A stretch of 49,717 nt of DNA from a virus, in the IMG/VR virus record IMGVR_UViG_3300044630_004419, positions 1-49,717 of that record; one strand, 5' to 3'. Below are positions 27,364 to 34,353 of the stretch, piece by piece. The notes beneath the pieces are model-generated. The model was not told where the DNA came from, made no database searches, and saw only the letters and a program-made list of their open reading frames with translations. The position numbers and the translations under genes are program-made. How positions within the stretch are numbered: position 1 is the stretch's first letter; the number at the start of each line of letters is the position of its first letter.

Positions 27364-28665
27364 TTATGGTTCTCCGTATGAATCTCTTACCAATTTAAGT
27401 CCTGTTAATCCCTTAATGTCAGAAAAATCGTGGGCAAGTTCTTTGATTAAATAAAGTCCAGACTTTTGATCGTCCTTTTCCTTTTCTTGCTTAGTGATCT
27501 TACCTATATTTAATCTAATTACATCACCAACTGCTAAATTTAAATTTAATGGAACAGTAATACTTAAAGACTGACTAAATGCAAGATTATATCTTGCTAC
27601 AGATTGTGATTGATATTTAATTCTGTCATCAATTTTAGAAGTAGGATCTACATTACCTGGAGATTTTACGACACCATCAATAAACTTGACCATCAATCTT
27701 GAAGGACTATCTTCTAATCCTTCTGGTATTTGTGGTCTTTCTTTACTCTTTGATGCATGGTTCATAATATCATAACTTTCAGATAGTTTATACTTATAAG
27801 AATCAAATTTTTTGGTATTCAAATCAAAGAAATAATTCACACTTGAATACATTCCTATTCTCAAATTGTCCAAAACATTTACATTTTTTTCGAATGTTGG
27901 GACAGTCAAAACTTTAAAGTTTGTAGTGTCCCTTGCGTAATCTGTTACATTCTCCGAATAAGAATATGTTTGATATTGTTTTTGATCTGCTGATGCTGGT
28001 AATAATGCAGACATCAATGAGTCTACACTTCTAAAATTATATCCATTTTTATTTTCATAAAATAAGTATCCAGCAGTTCCTTCTGTTGGAGATGACTTTC
28101 CAATTGGAGGAATTGATTTTGGACACAACCAAGACAATATATTAAATGGTTTCTTTGAATTGCCATAAAATGCATAACTATTTTTTGTGGGTTCAATCTC
28201 TCTTTTCTTATCAGTCTTCAGCACATCTTTTAATATTTGATCTATTGAGTCACTAATTTTTTGCTCTCCTCCCTGACTCTTTGGATACCGATTGAATACT
28301 CTTGTAGTTTCATTTTTAAATACTTCAATCGGTGCTAACTCCACTAAGAACATTTCTCTAGTAGACTGAGAAGTTGATCCGTGAACACGATGAATATAAT
28401 ATGGATTCTTAGTTTCATTTAATTCAATTCTCTGTCCAGTTGCTTCTTGAGTAATAATTAATCGTATTCTTTCTCCACCACGAATTGGAAGTGATGAAAT
28501 TAATCCATCAGTATTCACAATTACCATTGAAATGAATACTGCTGGAGAGAATATATCTTCAAAGTATTTAATTGAAGAAACGCAAGTTGTGGCATCAATA
28601 GATTTCGTTCCATCTAAAGATTCAATTACAAACTCTTGAATTTTATAGTTAAAATATGATGCCAT
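27364..28665 (-). CDS. 27: gp27-like baseplate hub protein, 433 aa
   Basis: Starts MASYFNYKIQEFVIESLDGT. Features are VVSSIKYFEDIFSPAVFIS-type beta text near residue 30, RGGERIRLIITQEATG, and a C-terminal PLNLNLAVGDVIRLNIGKI segment typical of gp27-like hub domains. It lies directly upstream of gp5 as in T4 (27 next to the hub genes). T4 gp27 is ~391 aa, close to this length. The start overlaps the upstream stop as TAATG. The assignment is by context and fold pattern. Confidence 0.65.
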   Translation of the reverse strand: MASYFNYKIQEFVIESLDGTKSIDATTCVSSIKYFEDIFSPAVFISMVIVNTDGLISSLPIRGGERIRLIITQEATGQRIELNETKNPYYIHRVHGSTSQSTREMFLVELAPIEVFKNETTRVFNRYPKSQGGEQKISDSIDQILKDVLKTDKKREIEPTKNSYAFYGNSKKPFNILSWLCPKSIPPIGKSSPTEGTAGYLFYENKNGYNFRSVDSLMSALLPASADQKQYQTYSYSENVTDYARDTTNFKVLTVPTFEKNVNVLDNLRIGMYSSVNYFFDLNTKKFDSYKYKLSESYDIMNHASKSKERPQIPEGLEDSPSRLMVKFIDGVVKSPGNVDPTSKIDDRIKYQSQSVARYNLAFSQSLSITVPLNLNLAVGDVIRLNIGKITKQEKEKDDQKSGLYLIKELAHDFSDIKGLTGLKLVRDSYGEP

Positions 28666-30638
28666 TATCCTAACGCTAACATAGTAAGATCCTTAATAGT
28701 ATTTAACTCAGATTTTCCTGAGTTCATTATCAATACCCCTGATTGTGATGCTGGTTGTGGTTGTGGGGATTGTGGTGCTGGTTGATTATATGAAATTAAG
28801 AATGTGTTTCCTGGCATATTATATGGCATATTATGTGCTATGGAATAATCCTTTGGTTTCTGTGTCGAACTAAAGGAATATGGATGATTCCTTTTTACAG
28901 CATCGTATAGATCTTTTGATATTTCTTCTCCATTTTGATAATATTTGCCATTTTTATATTCATATGTATGTCCACCTATAACTACACGTTGTGGTTTTAC
29001 TGCTGGTCTAGGTTGTGGTCTTGGTTGTGCTGCTGCTGGTCTGGGTTTTGCTGCTGCTGGTCTAGGTTGTGGGGTTGGTTGTGCTGCTGGTCTGGGTGGA
29101 TTTGATTTCCCTGAGAAAAATTCTTGTGCTTTATTTTCGGGAACTTCTACGTGAACGTGAGTATAATGACCAGATTCTTTCCATATTACTCTATATCCTT
29201 TTCTTCTCCAAAATTCTGCAACCATATCACCTTCTCTAGATGATTCTGGAACTGGAATATCAAATGCTCTATTTTGCCAATGTCCAGCACCTTTGTGAGC
29301 ATCTTTTTCATATGCAGTGTCATCTGCAAGTGGGTTTATTCTCCAGTTATCTTCCTTCCCACCTTCCCATATTCCAAGTTCTCTTATTTGATAATTTCTT
29401 GGTGATCCAGTTGCAAATTTTTCTTTTGGTGCTCCAAATTGTTTATTTCTAAATTCTCTAAATTCCATAATATCAGATCCTAAATTTCCACTCATTGCAC
29501 CATAATCAACATTATCATTAGGCATATTGTCATTGGTTTCAACATAATCTCTAGATGCGACTTCATCAGATGATTTAAAATTCTTAGAAAATTCTTCAAA
29601 CTTATTCACTACTCTTTCATAACCAACTAAGGTTTTTTCAAAAGACAATCCAGTTTTAGGTTCTTCCTTTTTATCAACAAGTTCTTTTTGTTTTTTAGTT
29701 TGCTCTTTTAGTCTTCCTTTTGTTGTAATATTTTTCTTAGATTCTGCTTCACTCATTCCAGTAATGTCACGAGCAAAATTAACAAGATCTAAAGTGATTG
29801 ATGCAAGACCCAAGAAAGGTGTCGCAATTAATCCAATTCCAGTTGCTGCTGAAGCAGCAGTTGCAGCATCCAATGCAGCAGAGGCACCAGCAATTCTAGA
29901 TCCTGTAATATCACCTTCATCTGCTCTCAGTTTAGCATCAACTGCACCAAGAACTGCACCAACACCAGGAATAATAGATTTTCCAAGTCTTCCAAATGCT
30001 TTTGTTGCCCTTCCACCAGTTGAAACAACATCTGATGTTGTGCCTATATTTTTTAAATTCTGTTTTCCAAATCTATTTTTAAATGCCTTTTCTCCATATC
30101 GATTCAAATATCTTTGTTGAGTAGATTTAGAAACTCTTCTTCCAGAAACATCAAAACCTTTAGGTGCCTTTCCTCTATCAAAGAACTTATTTACTCCTGC
30201 ACCAATTAATCCAGGACCAGCAACCATTCCAGCAGCAACTAATCCAGGAGCAATTGATCCAAGAACGTCTCCGTTTGCTAATTTTTCTAGACTATTAAAT
30301 GCTGCTAATGCTCCAACTGCCTTTAATGGATCACTTGATGCTCCAGGAGCAAAGAACGATCCAGCAAATTTTTTAATATCAGGAAGTTTAACTTTTCTTT
30401 TTGATGCTTTTTTTCTTCTTTCTTCGTCTTCTCTTTCTATAGAATCTAATCTTCTTTTATATCTTCTTAATACTGATAGTTGAGTTTTCTTTTGATAAGA
30501 ATTTTTTTCAAATATCCTTTTTAATTTGTTAGAGGATGTTTTTATTTTGTCGGCAGATTTCTGAAGAGTTTCTATATTCGAAACTCTTGGAACTAGTTTT
30601 GGTTGTTTAGGTTTTACTAATATTTTAGTATCTTCCAT
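28665..30638 (-). CDS. Hub/tape-measure-like protein with M15-type peptidase domain, 657 aa
   Basis: The N-terminal ~85 residues are coiled-coil-like. Residues 88-131 (IKKFAGSFFAPG, then ALAAFNSLEKLANGDVLG) are homologous by eye to residues 285-323 of the 709-aa neighbour. Gly/Ala-rich hydrophobic segments follow to ~295. Residues ~410-505 contain GHWQNRAFDI (His453, Asp460) and HYTHVHVE (His491, 494, 496), the metal-binding pattern of M15-like LD-carboxypeptidases/endopeptidases. A Pro/Ala-rich linker (~517-550) comes next, then a short C-terminal tail. It is probably a baseplate or tail protein that cuts peptidoglycan peptides during infection. Confidence 0.7.
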   Translation of the reverse strand: MEDTKILVKPKQPKLVPRVSNIETLQKSADKIKTSSNKLKRIFEKNSYQKKTQLSVLRRYKRRLDSIEREDEERRKKASKRKVKLPDIKKFAGSFFAPGASSDPLKAVGALAAFNSLEKLANGDVLGSIAPGLVAAGMVAGPGLIGAGVNKFFDRGKAPKGFDVSGRRVSKSTQQRYLNRYGEKAFKNRFGKQNLKNIGTTSDVVSTGGRATKAFGRLGKSIIPGVGAVLGAVDAKLRADEGDITGSRIAGASAALDAATAASAATGIGLIATPFLGLASITLDLVNFARDITGMSEAESKKNITTKGRLKEQTKKQKELVDKKEEPKTGLSFEKTLVGYERVVNKFEEFSKNFKSSDEVASRDYVETNDNMPNDNVDYGAMSGNLGSDIMEFREFRNKQFGAPKEKFATGSPRNYQIRELGIWEGGKEDNWRINPLADDTAYEKDAHKGAGHWQNRAFDIPVPESSREGDMVAEFWRRKGYRVIWKESGHYTHVHVEVPENKAQEFFSGKSNPPRPAAQPTPQPRPAAAKPRPAAAQPRPQPRPAVKPQRVVIGGHTYEYKNGKYYQNGEEISKDLYDAVKRNHPYSFSSTQKPKDYSIAHNMPYNMPGNTFLISYNQPAPQSPQPQPASQSGVLIMNSGKSELNTIKDLTMLALG

Positions 30639-30639
30639 A

Positions 30640-32769
30640 TTATGTTGGGATTACTCCAATATACAATTGAGCAGATTTTTTATATAAATTGTCATAAGAT
30701 GTAGATACTGAAGCAATTTCAGTTCCTCCACTATCTGCTTCGGATAGTGGAGTGGGTTCTTGATTCTGTGAGGGTAATCCAAGAGCAACAATGTTTGGAG
30801 TTACGTTTGGAACTGAAGATACCTCTGGTTCACGTTTTGGTTTTCGTTGTACTACTGGAGGTGGTAATGGAGTTGGGGTTGGTGCTGGTGCTGGTGTTGC
30901 ACCAGATTCAATATTTTGAAATCTTGGAAGTTGTTCACTAAACTTTCTCCAGTGTTCTGTTGGTTGCGAACCAGATAAATTTCCAGCAGGACCTGCATTA
31001 TACATTTTGACCATTGTTTCCACATTTCCTTTTGCTGGTCCTTCAAGCAAGGACTTCATATACATTGCTCCAAGAATTGCACTTGTTCTTGGATTTTTTG
31101 GATCATCAACTAACCCAAAAGATTTTCCATATTTTTCATATTCACCTCTGTAAGTTGTAGGAATCATTTGCATTAATCCAAGAGCACCAGATTTTGATAC
31201 TGCATTTGGATCAAAAGAAGATTCAATTGACATCATTGATGCAATTTGTGATGCAGGAACACCACTTAATTTTGATGCCTCATTAATTATGTCTTTATAT
31301 TCTCCAGCATTTAATTGAGTTGCTTGGGGATTGAAACTTCCAGGTCCACCACCTCCTCCTCTGCCTTGTTGTTGTGTTGGTTGTTCTTTCTGTTTCTTTA
31401 ATAAGAAATCAAGTGCTTTTTCAAATTTAATATTTAAGGATTCAAACTTTTTCAGTGCAGCATCTGGAATTGCTCCAATCCCTTCAGGAGAAACTAATGC
31501 TTTCTGTTCTGTTTCTAGTTCATCTAATCTTTGCTGTTGCGTAGTCGTTTCTTCTTTCTTTGAGGAAAGAAGTCCTGATCCTAGTGCTAATGCACCAGCA
31601 CCTAATCCAGCAATGGCACCGAACTTACCAAGTTTAGGCAATCCAGCAATTGCACCTGCTCCTCTTGCTGCTGCAGCACCTCCTCTAGAAACACCAGCAC
31701 CTTTTGTCGCACCGAGCAATCCACCTAAAACCTTTTTACCAAGCATTCCAGCAATCATTCCTCCAATTGCTGGTAAGTATGTTGCTCCAATTCCGAGAAG
31801 TGGTCCTATCGCACCCAATGGATCACCACTCATGAACTTCTCTAGCATATTGAATAATGCTAGAGAACGAATTGCACCTCCAGTTCCAGAAAAGAAACTG
31901 CCGACATATTTCTTTACTACGTTGGAAACATCTACTTTATTATCACCAAGATCTTTTTTGCCAATCCTTCTTCCACGATTGGCAACTCTCTTTTTATATT
32001 CGTCAACTTCTTTTTTATTGATTTCTCTTGTCTTTGCAATGTCCTCTGACATTACTTCAAAAACTCTTTCAATATTATCACTTGTCTGCTCAAGAGATAA
32101 TGCTAATCTTCCCAAAGACGATACAATTCTCTTTGAACCAGAAATTCCTTCCTCAGTTTCAACTGCTTCTAGTTGTGGTTTTGAAATTTTTTCTACAACA
32201 TCTTGAGGAGTAGATCTTTTTGGAATGATTCCAGTAAGTTTTACAGTCTTAAACTTTACAGTTTTTCCAGGTCTAAAACTAGTAGCACCAGAAATAAAAC
32301 CAGATGCTTTCTTTTTCTTTTCTTCTGATTGTTCTAATTGTTGCTGTTCTTTATCTTTTTGCTTCTGAAGTAATTGTAATCTTACATCTTCTTCATCATT
32401 GATTCTTTTAATCGTAATCTCTGCAAGTTCATAGAATCGAATGAGATAATCACAAACTTCTTTAATATTTTTATTTAATTCTGGAGCATTATAAAATGGA
32501 CCACTATTCAAATATTCAGTATAGTTTTCAAGTTTTCCACCAAAGAATCTTAATTGTCGATATGCAGAATCATATCCCTTATCTGTTGGAGATAAGTATC
32601 CAACTTGCATTGTAAAATCAGCATCTCTTCCTAGAAACTCATCTAATTTATCATAAACTTTAGTTCTATTTTTTGGAGGTGGAAACAAATGAAATCCAGG
32701 AGGAACTAACTTTTCAAGTTCCTCCCTTATCCTTTGCTTTTTAATTTGAAGTAGATCCTTTGTTTCCAT
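30640..32769 (-). CDS. Tape-measure/hub-like protein with lytic transglycosylase domain, 709 aa
   Basis: Residues 1-280 are mostly charged and helical. The segment at 285-323 (VKKYVGSFFSG, ALFNMLEKFMSGDPLGAIGP) is shared with the 657-aa neighbour. Gly/Ala-rich hydrophobic stretches run to ~405. Residues ~490-620 form an SLT lytic transglycosylase: catalytic Glu516 in MSIESSFDPNAVSKSGALG, GLMQM, and MYNAGPAG near 589. A Pro-rich C-terminus follows. It lies directly after the gp26/60-aa pair, the place where tape-measure genes usually sit. At 709 aa it is longer than T4 gp29 (~590). Confidence 0.75.
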   Translation of the reverse strand: METKDLLQIKKQRIREELEKLVPPGFHLFPPPKNRTKVYDKLDEFLGRDADFTMQVGYLSPTDKGYDSAYRQLRFFGGKLENYTEYLNSGPFYNAPELNKNIKEVCDYLIRFYELAEITIKRINDEEDVRLQLLQKQKDKEQQQLEQSEEKKKKASGFISGATSFRPGKTVKFKTVKLTGIIPKRSTPQDVVEKISKPQLEAVETEEGISGSKRIVSSLGRLALSLEQTSDNIERVFEVMSEDIAKTREINKKEVDEYKKRVANRGRRIGKKDLGDNKVDVSNVVKKYVGSFFSGTGGAIRSLALFNMLEKFMSGDPLGAIGPLLGIGATYLPAIGGMIAGMLGKKVLGGLLGATKGAGVSRGGAAAARGAGAIAGLPKLGKFGAIAGLGAGALALGSGLLSSKKEETTTQQQRLDELETEQKALVSPEGIGAIPDAALKKFESLNIKFEKALDFLLKKQKEQPTQQQGRGGGGGPGSFNPQATQLNAGEYKDIINEASKLSGVPASQIASMMSIESSFDPNAVSKSGALGLMQMIPTTYRGEYEKYGKSFGLVDDPKNPRTSAILGAMYMKSLLEGPAKGNVETMVKMYNAGPAGNLSGSQPTEHWRKFSEQLPRFQNIESGATPAPAPTPTPLPPPVVQRKPKREPEVSSVPNVTPNIVALGLPSQNQEPTPLSEADSGGTEIASVSTSYDNLYKKSAQLYIGVIPT

Positions 32770-32952
32770 TTAGAGACTCTGTTTTCTTGATGCTTTCTCT
32801 TCTTCGTCTTTAATGTGATTCTCCAAGAGGGTTAAATATATTTCTCTCTCCCAAGGGATCATATTTTCAATTTCAGTCAATGAATATTTATGATACTGCA
32901 TCAAGGCAAAATTAATTCGATAATAAGATTCTAAGTCTTCGTGACTCATCAT
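32770..32952 (-). CDS. Tail-assembly chaperone-like 60-aa ORF, frameshift partner of gp26
   Basis: A 60-residue acidic and basic helical protein (MMSHEDLESYYRINFALMQY at the start, IENMIPWEREIYLTLLENHI near the end). It starts in a TAATG overlap with the gp26 stop, but in the -1 frame. The slippery T-TTT-TTC lies 5 nt before the gp26 stop; a -1 shift there continues without a stop into this ORF (about 304 aa fused). That mirrors lambda G/GT. Homology to gpT-type domains is inferred from position and the W-ER-Y-LL-H pattern. Confidence 0.7.
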   Translation of the reverse strand: MMSHEDLESYYRINFALMQYHKYSLTEIENMIPWEREIYLTLLENHIKDEEEKASRKQSL

Positions 32953-33683
32953 TATCCGAAAAAACTTGATAACCCTTCTAAAACAATTTCATTTTCTACA
33001 CCAGTTTTTGGATTCTTAATCATCATAGTGTGAGAAAGTTTAGGCATTGTATCAAAGAACTCTTCAATTCCTTTAAACTGATTGGAGTCCATTGTCTCCA
33101 ACCACTCAACAATCTCCTTCTTATTCAAATCTCCTGATGTCCAAGACTCATCCTTTGTATACACCATATCAATACAAGATGCAACTACCTCAAAGGATTT
33201 GTCAATAACTTCTTTACTAGTATTCTGAGTTCCAAAGTCAAAATTATTGGCAATGAATTCTTGTAATGATGGATATTTCATTTTAATAACAATGTTTCCA
33301 TCAACATCAATCTCTGAAGTATGACCATCTGGAATTACAACTGTGATTTCATCAATATTAACCTTGGCATCAACTTGAGTTTGACCATCATCTGGGCAAG
33401 TGATAGTCAACTCTACAGATTCTCCAACAGACTTTGCTCTAATATTAAGAAATAGATATTCAATATCAAAACTTGGCAGAGTATCAATTTTAATTCCTCT
33501 TGTCAAAATACAATCCTTAAGAGTAGTTTTGATTGCATTAGTAATCTCATCAGAATTGCCACTCTCCATCGCAAGAATCAAAATCTTTTCTTCTTTTACA
33601 AGGAATGGACGATACTTAATTGTTTTTTTATTTGATGGTAAAATCAACTCATAAGTTGGAGTTGCAATCTTTGGTAAAGGCAT
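32952..33683 (-). CDS. 26: Baseplate hub/assembly protein gp26-like, 243 aa
   Basis: Matches the T4 baseplate gp26 family pattern (Pfam T4_baseplate): PTYELILPSNKKTIKYRPFL at the start, VKEEKILILAMESG near residue 30, and a C-terminal ELTITCPDD region. T4 gp26 is ~208 aa; this one is somewhat longer. A perfect late promoter TATAAATA lies 27 bp upstream. Its end carries a -1 slippery site fusing it to the next ORF. It acts in hub or tail initiation in T4 relatives. Confidence 0.8.
   Translation of the reverse strand: MPLPKIATPTYELILPSNKKTIKYRPFLVKEEKILILAMESGNSDEITNAIKTTLKDCILTRGIKIDTLPSFDIEYLFLNIRAKSVGESVELTITCPDDGQTQVDAKVNIDEITVVIPDGHTSEIDVDGNIVIKMKYPSLQEFIANNFDFGTQNTSKEVIDKSFEVVASCIDMVYTKDESWTSGDLNKKEIVEWLETMDSNQFKGIEEFFDTMPKLSHTMMIKNPKTGVENEIVLEGLSSFFG
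32961..32967 (-). promoter_or_regulatory. Putative -1 frameshift slippery site TTTTTTC
   Basis: On the minus strand the codons AGT TTT TTC GGA TAA end gp26. T-TTT-TTC is a perfect X-XXY-YYZ heptamer. An SD-like AGAAGGG lies 8 nt upstream, as seen in stimulated bacterial -1 sites. The phage P2 E/E' shift uses T-TTT-TTG (from memory). No clear downstream hairpin is seen. Confidence 0.65.
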
Positions 33684-33708: not shown

Positions 33709-34353
33709 TTATTTATAGGTAACATTTTGATATGAATAGAAATCATAATTAAATGTGATTGTAGTTCTCAAAATATCTGCTTGGGAATATGATACTGGTA
33801 TTGAAATTATATTAGAAGGAAATGCATTTTTTAATGTGTATGTACACTTGGTTTTAATATTAGGAACTCCTGCGTCTCCCTTAGTTGATAGTCTGGCATT
33901 CGAATCTCTATAATCTCGTTCAAATTTTGTGATCACTACTTCTTTTTTATATGTTACTGGATAATTAAATCTAGCATATCTATTATCTAATTCATTTCTA
34001 CTACCATTAGATTCTTCTCCCTTTGTTTGACATATGGATTGCATCCAATTTTCAAAGAAGGTGGGTACTTTATAATCTGCATTTATATAAAAACTTACAT
34101 CAATTGGTGGATAAACACGTTTATTTGCATATGGTTCTGTGATTCCTTGCCTATCTCCAAATACTTGTCCCAATTCAAAAGATGTTCCAGGAAGAACTGC
34201 TTCATATGCAAAGATATTAATATCATCAGAAGAAACATCTCCAAAGTTGGAGTTTGAAATAAAAACACTAAAGTATGATGTTAATGATGGATTAAATTTT
34301 CTAATCAACTTATCACTATCAATGTGCAGTTGATTTACTTCTACTTGTGCCAT
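33709..34353 (-). CDS. Tail tube-like protein, 214 aa
   Basis: A 214-residue protein starting MAQVEVNQLHIDSDKLIRKF, with SYFSVFISNSNFG, NIFAYEAVLPGTSFELGQVFG, FFENWMQSICQT and a C-terminal TTITFNYDFYSYQNV. These match the T4 tube-fold pattern (gp19/gp54-type). Next to gp48 on the opposite strand, it may be the gp54-like tube initiator or a tube subunit. The start codon lies inside the perfect plus-strand late promoter at 34353. The distinction gp19 versus gp54 is not resolved. Confidence 0.6.
   Translation of the reverse strand: MAQVEVNQLHIDSDKLIRKFNPSLTSYFSVFISNSNFGDVSSDDINIFAYEAVLPGTSFELGQVFGDRQGITEPYANKRVYPPIDVSFYINADYKVPTFFENWMQSICQTKGEESNGSRNELDNRYARFNYPVTYKKEVVITKFERDYRDSNARLSTKGDAGVPNIKTKCTYTLKNAFPSNIISIPVSYSQADILRTTITFNYDFYSYQNVTYK
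33710..33717 (-). promoter_or_regulatory. Perfect late promoter TATAAATA for gp26
   Basis: TATAAATA on the minus strand overlaps the stop codon of the 214-aa gene and lies 27 bp upstream of the gp26 ATG. Confidence 0.75.

Follow-up and report, generated by a model that had tools for sequence, protein, structure and literature searches.

A conserved slippery heptamer and a probable programmed -1 frameshift at the end of a T4-type gp26 gene

We analysed a 49,717-nucleotide stretch of viral DNA (IMG/VR virus record IMGVR_UViG_3300044630_004419), referred to here as the window. The virus belongs to the T4-like cyanophages. It contains a gp26-like gene and, beginning at the end of that gene, a 60-aa ORF with a gp51-like domain (Table 1). 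The product of the gp26-like gene matched Pfam T4_baseplate (PF12322; E 1.1e-75) and PHROG 150 (baseplate hub; E 1.5e-81), and a homologue of gp26 is present in 1,418 phage records. The order of genes (tail tube, then gp26, gp51 and a large SLT protein) agrees with a reading of gp26 as a tail assembly chaperone. An AlphaFold model of gp26 (pLDDT 85) was compared with structures in the PDB. The HK97 tail assembly chaperone 2ob9_B had the highest probability (0.30), with a non-significant E of 0.75. A profile search of PDB sequences gave no relevant match.

Table 1. Positions of the genes and sequence elements around the end of gp26 in the window.
Feature	Position	Strand	Remarks
Tail tube protein gene	33709..34353	minus	directly upstream of gp26; Pfam Phage_TTP_2 E 2.7e-15, PHROG 45 E 1.2e-27
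gp26-like gene, 243 aa	33683..32952	minus	short tail assembly chaperone form (TAC-N), zero-frame product
SD-like AGAAGGG	32979..32973	minus	ends 8 nt before the heptamer; putative internal Shine-Dalgarno stimulator
Slippery heptamer T_TTT_TTC	32964..32958	minus	-1 frameshift site; sequence and conservation
Predicted RNA hairpin	32919..32956	minus	starts 2 nt past the heptamer; putative 3' stimulator
gp26 zero-frame stop TAA	32954..32952	minus	one codon past the heptamer, within the predicted hairpin
60-aa ORF, -1 frame	32770..32952	minus	gp51-like C-terminal domain (TAC-C); entered from 32958 via the shift
709-aa protein, SLT transglycosylase domain	30640..32769	minus	directly downstream; Pfam SLT E 1.5e-18, two hydrophobic stretches

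A first-pass annotation, made from the sequence of the window, had called the next gene tape-measure-like. Its position, its SLT domain and its hydrophobic stretches agree with that description. On these three features, we treat the 709-aa protein as a candidate tape measure. Two consecutive large proteins follow gp51 (30640-32769 and 28665-30638, minus strand). Both have hydrophobic stretches and either is a candidate for the tape measure; the SLT domain is found in one of them.

The record of Dickeya phage LIMEstone1 marks gp26 as a confirmed structural protein. In this respect it is unlike the chaperones of lambda, which are absent from virions. A structural gp26 is at odds with a chaperone that leaves the virion, except if part of the protein stays bound.

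The gp26-like gene ends with the codons AGT TTT TTC GGA TAA. These include T_TTT_TTC, a heptamer of the form X_XXY_YYZ, as had been noticed in the first-pass annotation. The window has 23 non-overlapping ORFs that are 150 aa or longer, with 11,846 codons in all, and T_TTT_TT[ACT] occurred in frame once among them, at the end of gp26. Apart from the gp26 heptamer, no X_XXY_YYZ sequence fell in the final 10 codons of these ORFs. In the -1 frame, TTT TTC is followed by CGG ATA ATG ATG AGT CAC and there is no stop codon until 32772..32770. The predicted fusion has 242 + 62 = 304 amino acids. Thus, the earlier statement agrees with the sequence: a -1 shift enters the 60-aa ORF with no intervening stop and yields a product of about 304 aa. 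We do not use the open -1 frame as independent evidence. An overlap of the type TAATG places the next gene in the -1 frame by default, so an open -1 frame alone says little.

The 60-aa ORF matched PHROG 634 ('baseplate hub assembly catalyst', that is, gp51; E 4e-28). It also matched the final 46 positions of PHROG 150, the gp26 family, and this match pointed to the existence of fused proteins. T4 gp51 is one. It is 249 aa long and covers positions 13-280 of the 282 in PHROG 150. Its residues 1-201 matched Pfam T4_baseplate, and its last ~45 residues aligned with the 60-aa ORF of the window (36% identity over 44 aa, E 3e-7). As judged from these alignments, T4 gp51 is a paralogue of gp26 with the conserved downstream domain fused in frame. 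In contrast, the downstream domain is absent from T4 gp26, and the end of that gene (GAG TTC TTT GAG TTA CTA TAA) has no heptamer. Because T4 gp51 resembles gp26 over its full length and has the extra domain, and T4 gp26 does not have it, T4 encodes its short and long forms in two genes. The domains of T4 gp26 and gp51 are homologous to those of the short and long forms in the window; the difference is that in T4 the short form (gp26) and the long form (gp51) come from two separate, divergently placed genes with no frameshift site. T4 gp26 also matched PHROG 1140 (baseplate hub distal subunit, the gp28 family) with an E of 9e-4, and a distant relation between gp26 and gp28 is possible on this basis.

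We found that the heptamer is widely conserved. gp26 homologues were gathered from IMG/VR and from named phages, giving 155 distinct sequences. In 133 of these, T_TTT_TTN was present no more than 6 codons from the stop and the -1 frame was open. The heptamer was TTTTTTC in 129 of the 133, TTTTTTA in 2 and TTTTTTT in 2, and it was exactly one codon ahead of the stop in 129 of 133. Carriers include Kyanoviridae and the KVP40-like and phiAS5-like Straboviridae, and also phages of Sinorhizobium, Agrobacterium, Stenotrophomonas, Acidovorax, Desulfovibrio and Pseudoalteromonas. It was kept in homologues that are less than 30% identical in protein to the gp26 of the window. The remaining 22 of the 155 had no heptamer near the gp26 stop; these were Tevenvirinae (T4, KMB20), Ackermannviridae and Vibrio phage D531. 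That is, the conservation proposed as a check in the first-pass annotation was found, for both the heptamer and the open -1 frame, in every homologue outside these three.

The heptamer is also conserved beyond what its codons require. Clustering at 80% identity gave 82 heptamer-bearing representatives. The base preceding TTT was T in 82 of 82, compared to 51 of 82 expected from codon usage, and the codon that supplies this T specifies any of five amino acids (Ser, Asp, Asn, Ala or Arg). The first Phe codon was TTT in all 82 (usage 67%) and the second codon of the heptamer was TTC in 78 of 82 (usage 33%). The 80 representatives with complete extensions had 55-67 codons in the -1 frame and no premature stop.

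We examined the sequences on each side of the heptamer. The SD-like AGAAGGG that had been reported 8 nt upstream is indeed at that position. The Glu codon five before the first Phe codon was GAG in 56 of 67 representatives, compared to 33% elsewhere in the same genes (P about 1e-17, phylogeny ignored). GGG followed GAA, as it does in the window (GAA GGG), in 6 of 11, versus 4 of 56 (Fisher P 7e-4, phylogeny ignored); GGG in this place preserves the match to the anti-SD. The mean anti-SD energy was -6.82 kcal/mol, compared to -5.29 kcal/mol in synonymous resampling, and 0 of 200 resamplings were as strong (phylogeny ignored). Codon choice of this kind indicates that the SD-like codons are selected beyond the need for the amino acids.

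Downstream, the predicted hairpin of the window has a folding energy of -10.5 kcal/mol, a stability that was matched by just 0.3% of 2000 synonymous sequences (z -3.25). For the 82 representatives, a 39-nt segment starting 2 nt past the heptamer had a mean z of -2.21, with 52% below -2, relative to sequences recoded synonymously for the same -1-frame peptide. Other segments, upstream and further downstream, had a mean z of about -0.3, and mostly 4-13% were below -2. Covariation was seen in two register groups, in which paired changes scored above all 500 shuffles; these groups were picked by best register, which favours structure. The test by synonymous resampling is free of such selection. 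The usual spacing from heptamer to hairpin is 5-8 nt. The base of the gp26 hairpin is nearer, 2 nt from the heptamer, and this counts against the layout of a stimulator.

In some of these phages a shift appears to be needed. The conserved downstream domain begins at about codon 8 of the -1 extension, and in 30 of 82 representatives there was no ATG, GTG or TTG among the first 8 post-shift codons, that is, before the conserved domain. Judging from these reading frames, the whole downstream domain in those 30 is producible only by a shift, because no start codon precedes it. The 60-aa ORF of the window has its own ATGATG overlapping the gp26 stop, a feature that is missing in many relatives. Because of this overlap, independent or coupled initiation of the ORF is possible in the window.

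The lack of a start codon ahead of the domain accounts for errors in annotation. gp51 was left out in S-CAM1 and ACG-2014d, and in ACG-2014a it was annotated from a start inside the conserved domain, giving 31 aa. Likewise, gp51 is unannotated or begun inside the conserved domain in S-RIM8 and S-RIM12. None of the annotated phage records examined had gp26 and gp51 as a joined CDS. The appropriate annotation in all five of these phages is a CDS that joins gp51 to gp26. In the cyanophage records examined, gp51, listed as a separate gene and often missing or given a wrong start, would be the end of a frameshifted gp26.

The gp26 genes of Ackermannviridae end with a conserved ATT TTC ATT TAA that lacks an X_XXY_YYZ heptamer, and their -1 frame is open into a gp51-like domain. 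In Kuttervirus and related genomes there is no start codon ahead of this domain. A slip site of another kind (T_TTC) may be used in Ackermannviridae, or else an unusual start. Separately, the gp26 in the record OR844944.1 (Enterococcus phage Efm 3-10) and the gp26 of Salmonella phage Det7 are identical, a hint that the Efm 3-10 record is mislabelled or contaminated.

Based on these results, we think it very likely that gp26 forms a single gene with the small ORF that follows it, and that this gene encodes a short and a long tail assembly chaperone by a programmed -1 frameshift. The first-pass annotation had proposed such a frameshift, like that of lambda G/GT. The conservation of the heptamer, the loss of start codons and the fusion in T4 gp51 argue for it, and the SD-like codons and the downstream hairpin add to the case. 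The analysis shows the elements, their conservation and the selection on them; we infer slippage, its frequency and the roles of the two proteins as follows. Most ribosomes would stop at the gp26 TAA and produce the short chaperone, TAC-N. A fraction would slip by -1 on T_TTT_TTC, with the P-site and A-site tRNA-Phe re-pairing on TTT TTT. These ribosomes would then read 62 more codons and produce the 304-aa TAC-NC, whose extra domain is the counterpart of the T4 gp51 C-terminus. The SD-like sequence upstream and the hairpin past the heptamer probably raise the efficiency of slippage. By analogy with lambda gpG and gpGT, TAC-N would form a coat on the tape measure protein, and TAC-NC would bring in tail tube subunits through its extra domain.

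An alternative is that gp51 is a separate gene that uses its own start, by reinitiation at the TAATG overlap, and that the heptamer is incidental. The window and several relatives do have an ATG at the gp26 stop, and GenBank records are annotated in this style. However, the 30 representatives without a start codon before the domain lack a start at which to reinitiate, the nearest SD-like sequence is ~20 nt from the ATG of the window, and the phase of the heptamer, the SD-like sequence and the hairpin are conserved beyond coding need. We consider a separate gp51 very unlikely.

Two further explanations address the run of T residues itself. Slippage of RNA polymerase on the T6 run (a transcriptional frameshift) could produce the fusion. 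The conserved element is a six-T run, and gain or loss of bases also reaches the -1 frame. Still, for transcriptional slippage in bacteria a run of six T before a C is short, and the variants TTTTTTA and TTTTTTT remain within the motif for tandem slippage. The selection on the upstream SD-like sequence and the downstream hairpin, known stimulators of ribosomal -1 shifting, also fits poorly with slippage of the polymerase, and we regard this explanation as very unlikely. It could also be that a heptamer occurs by chance at the end of an AT-rich gene. A single sequence could not rule this out, and -1 overlaps are common. The rarity of the heptamer in the window and its presence in 133 distinct homologues, to below 30% protein identity, reduce the probability of chance to a negligible level, and its conservation refutes chance resemblance.

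If ribosomal frameshifting joins gp26 to gp51, then these proteins, long called baseplate hub proteins of unclear role, are to be grouped with tail assembly chaperones. The conserved stimulators also make the ratio of short to long form in T4-like phages directly testable with reporters. A more elaborate reading, which we hold tentatively and with somewhat less than even confidence, is that the cyanophage signal has three parts (SD-like sequence, heptamer and hairpin), that the compensating hairpin over the zero-frame stop may both stimulate slippage and block independent initiation of gp51, and that the site has been swapped in Ackermannviridae. If this is true, the ratio of short to long form would be set more tightly than in lambda, and in Ackermannviridae the heptamer would be replaced by an undescribed site within ATT TTC ATT TAA.

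The abstract of the 2022 study of T4-like chaperones by Vladimirov and colleagues reportedly names T4 genes 26 and 51 and is said to state that several T4-like groups have retained frameshifting. Otherwise, the content of this study (Vladimirov, Gautam and Davidson, Virology 2022, doi 10.1016/j.virol.2021.11.003) is given here as described in two papers that cite it, PMC10885494 and PMC12846349. According to these papers, poly-T slippery sequences in the TAC-N genes of T4-like phages are known -1 signals (PMC12846349), and in some T4-like phages one short gene and a separate fused long gene replace frameshifting (PMC10885494). A review from 2016 had described G-T frameshifting as widely conserved 'except T4' (PMC5009743). 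The first-pass annotation remarked that such a description is unusual for T4-type gp26; this remark is therefore out of date, as far as the citing papers convey the 2022 work. As presented in those papers, the mechanism was already known for T4-like phages, and the window is a well-supported new example. The strategy, and apparently the genes, are identical to those in the window, and no difference is established from the citing texts. The bias in the SD-like codons, the hairpin and the odd site in Ackermannviridae are additions, in that we did not find them described in the texts that cite the study.

Similar arrangements are found in other systems. In phage Adele (Vandenendeviridae/Andersonviridae), TAC-N ends in a T-rich slip site, the -1 frame is open, and the chaperone genes were also misannotated as separate (PMC12846349). 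This phage differs from the window in its motif, GTTTTT, and in belonging to other phage families (PMC12846349). Both gpG and gpGT of lambda attach to the tape measure protein, gpGT by its G portion; the T portion of gpGT attaches to the tail tube protein (PMC5009743). The order in lambda is like that in the window (tail tube gene, V, before G; then a short ORF with its -1 extension; then a large tail gene), the -1 shift is likewise at the 3' end, and the long form gains a small C-terminal domain. In contrast to the lambda proteins, those of the window belong to another family by sequence, and the window adds a conserved SD-like sequence and a hairpin. The lambda heptamer, G_GGA_AAG, is unlike T_TTT_TTC. 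In Escherichia coli dnaX, a cellular gene, an SD-like element about 10 nt upstream and a hairpin about 5-6 nt downstream flank the tandem heptamer A_AAA_AAG. Because an SD-like sequence, a heptamer and a hairpin are all present at the end of gp26, its layout resembles that of dnaX, and it appears to be nearer to this three-part signal than to the signal of lambda.
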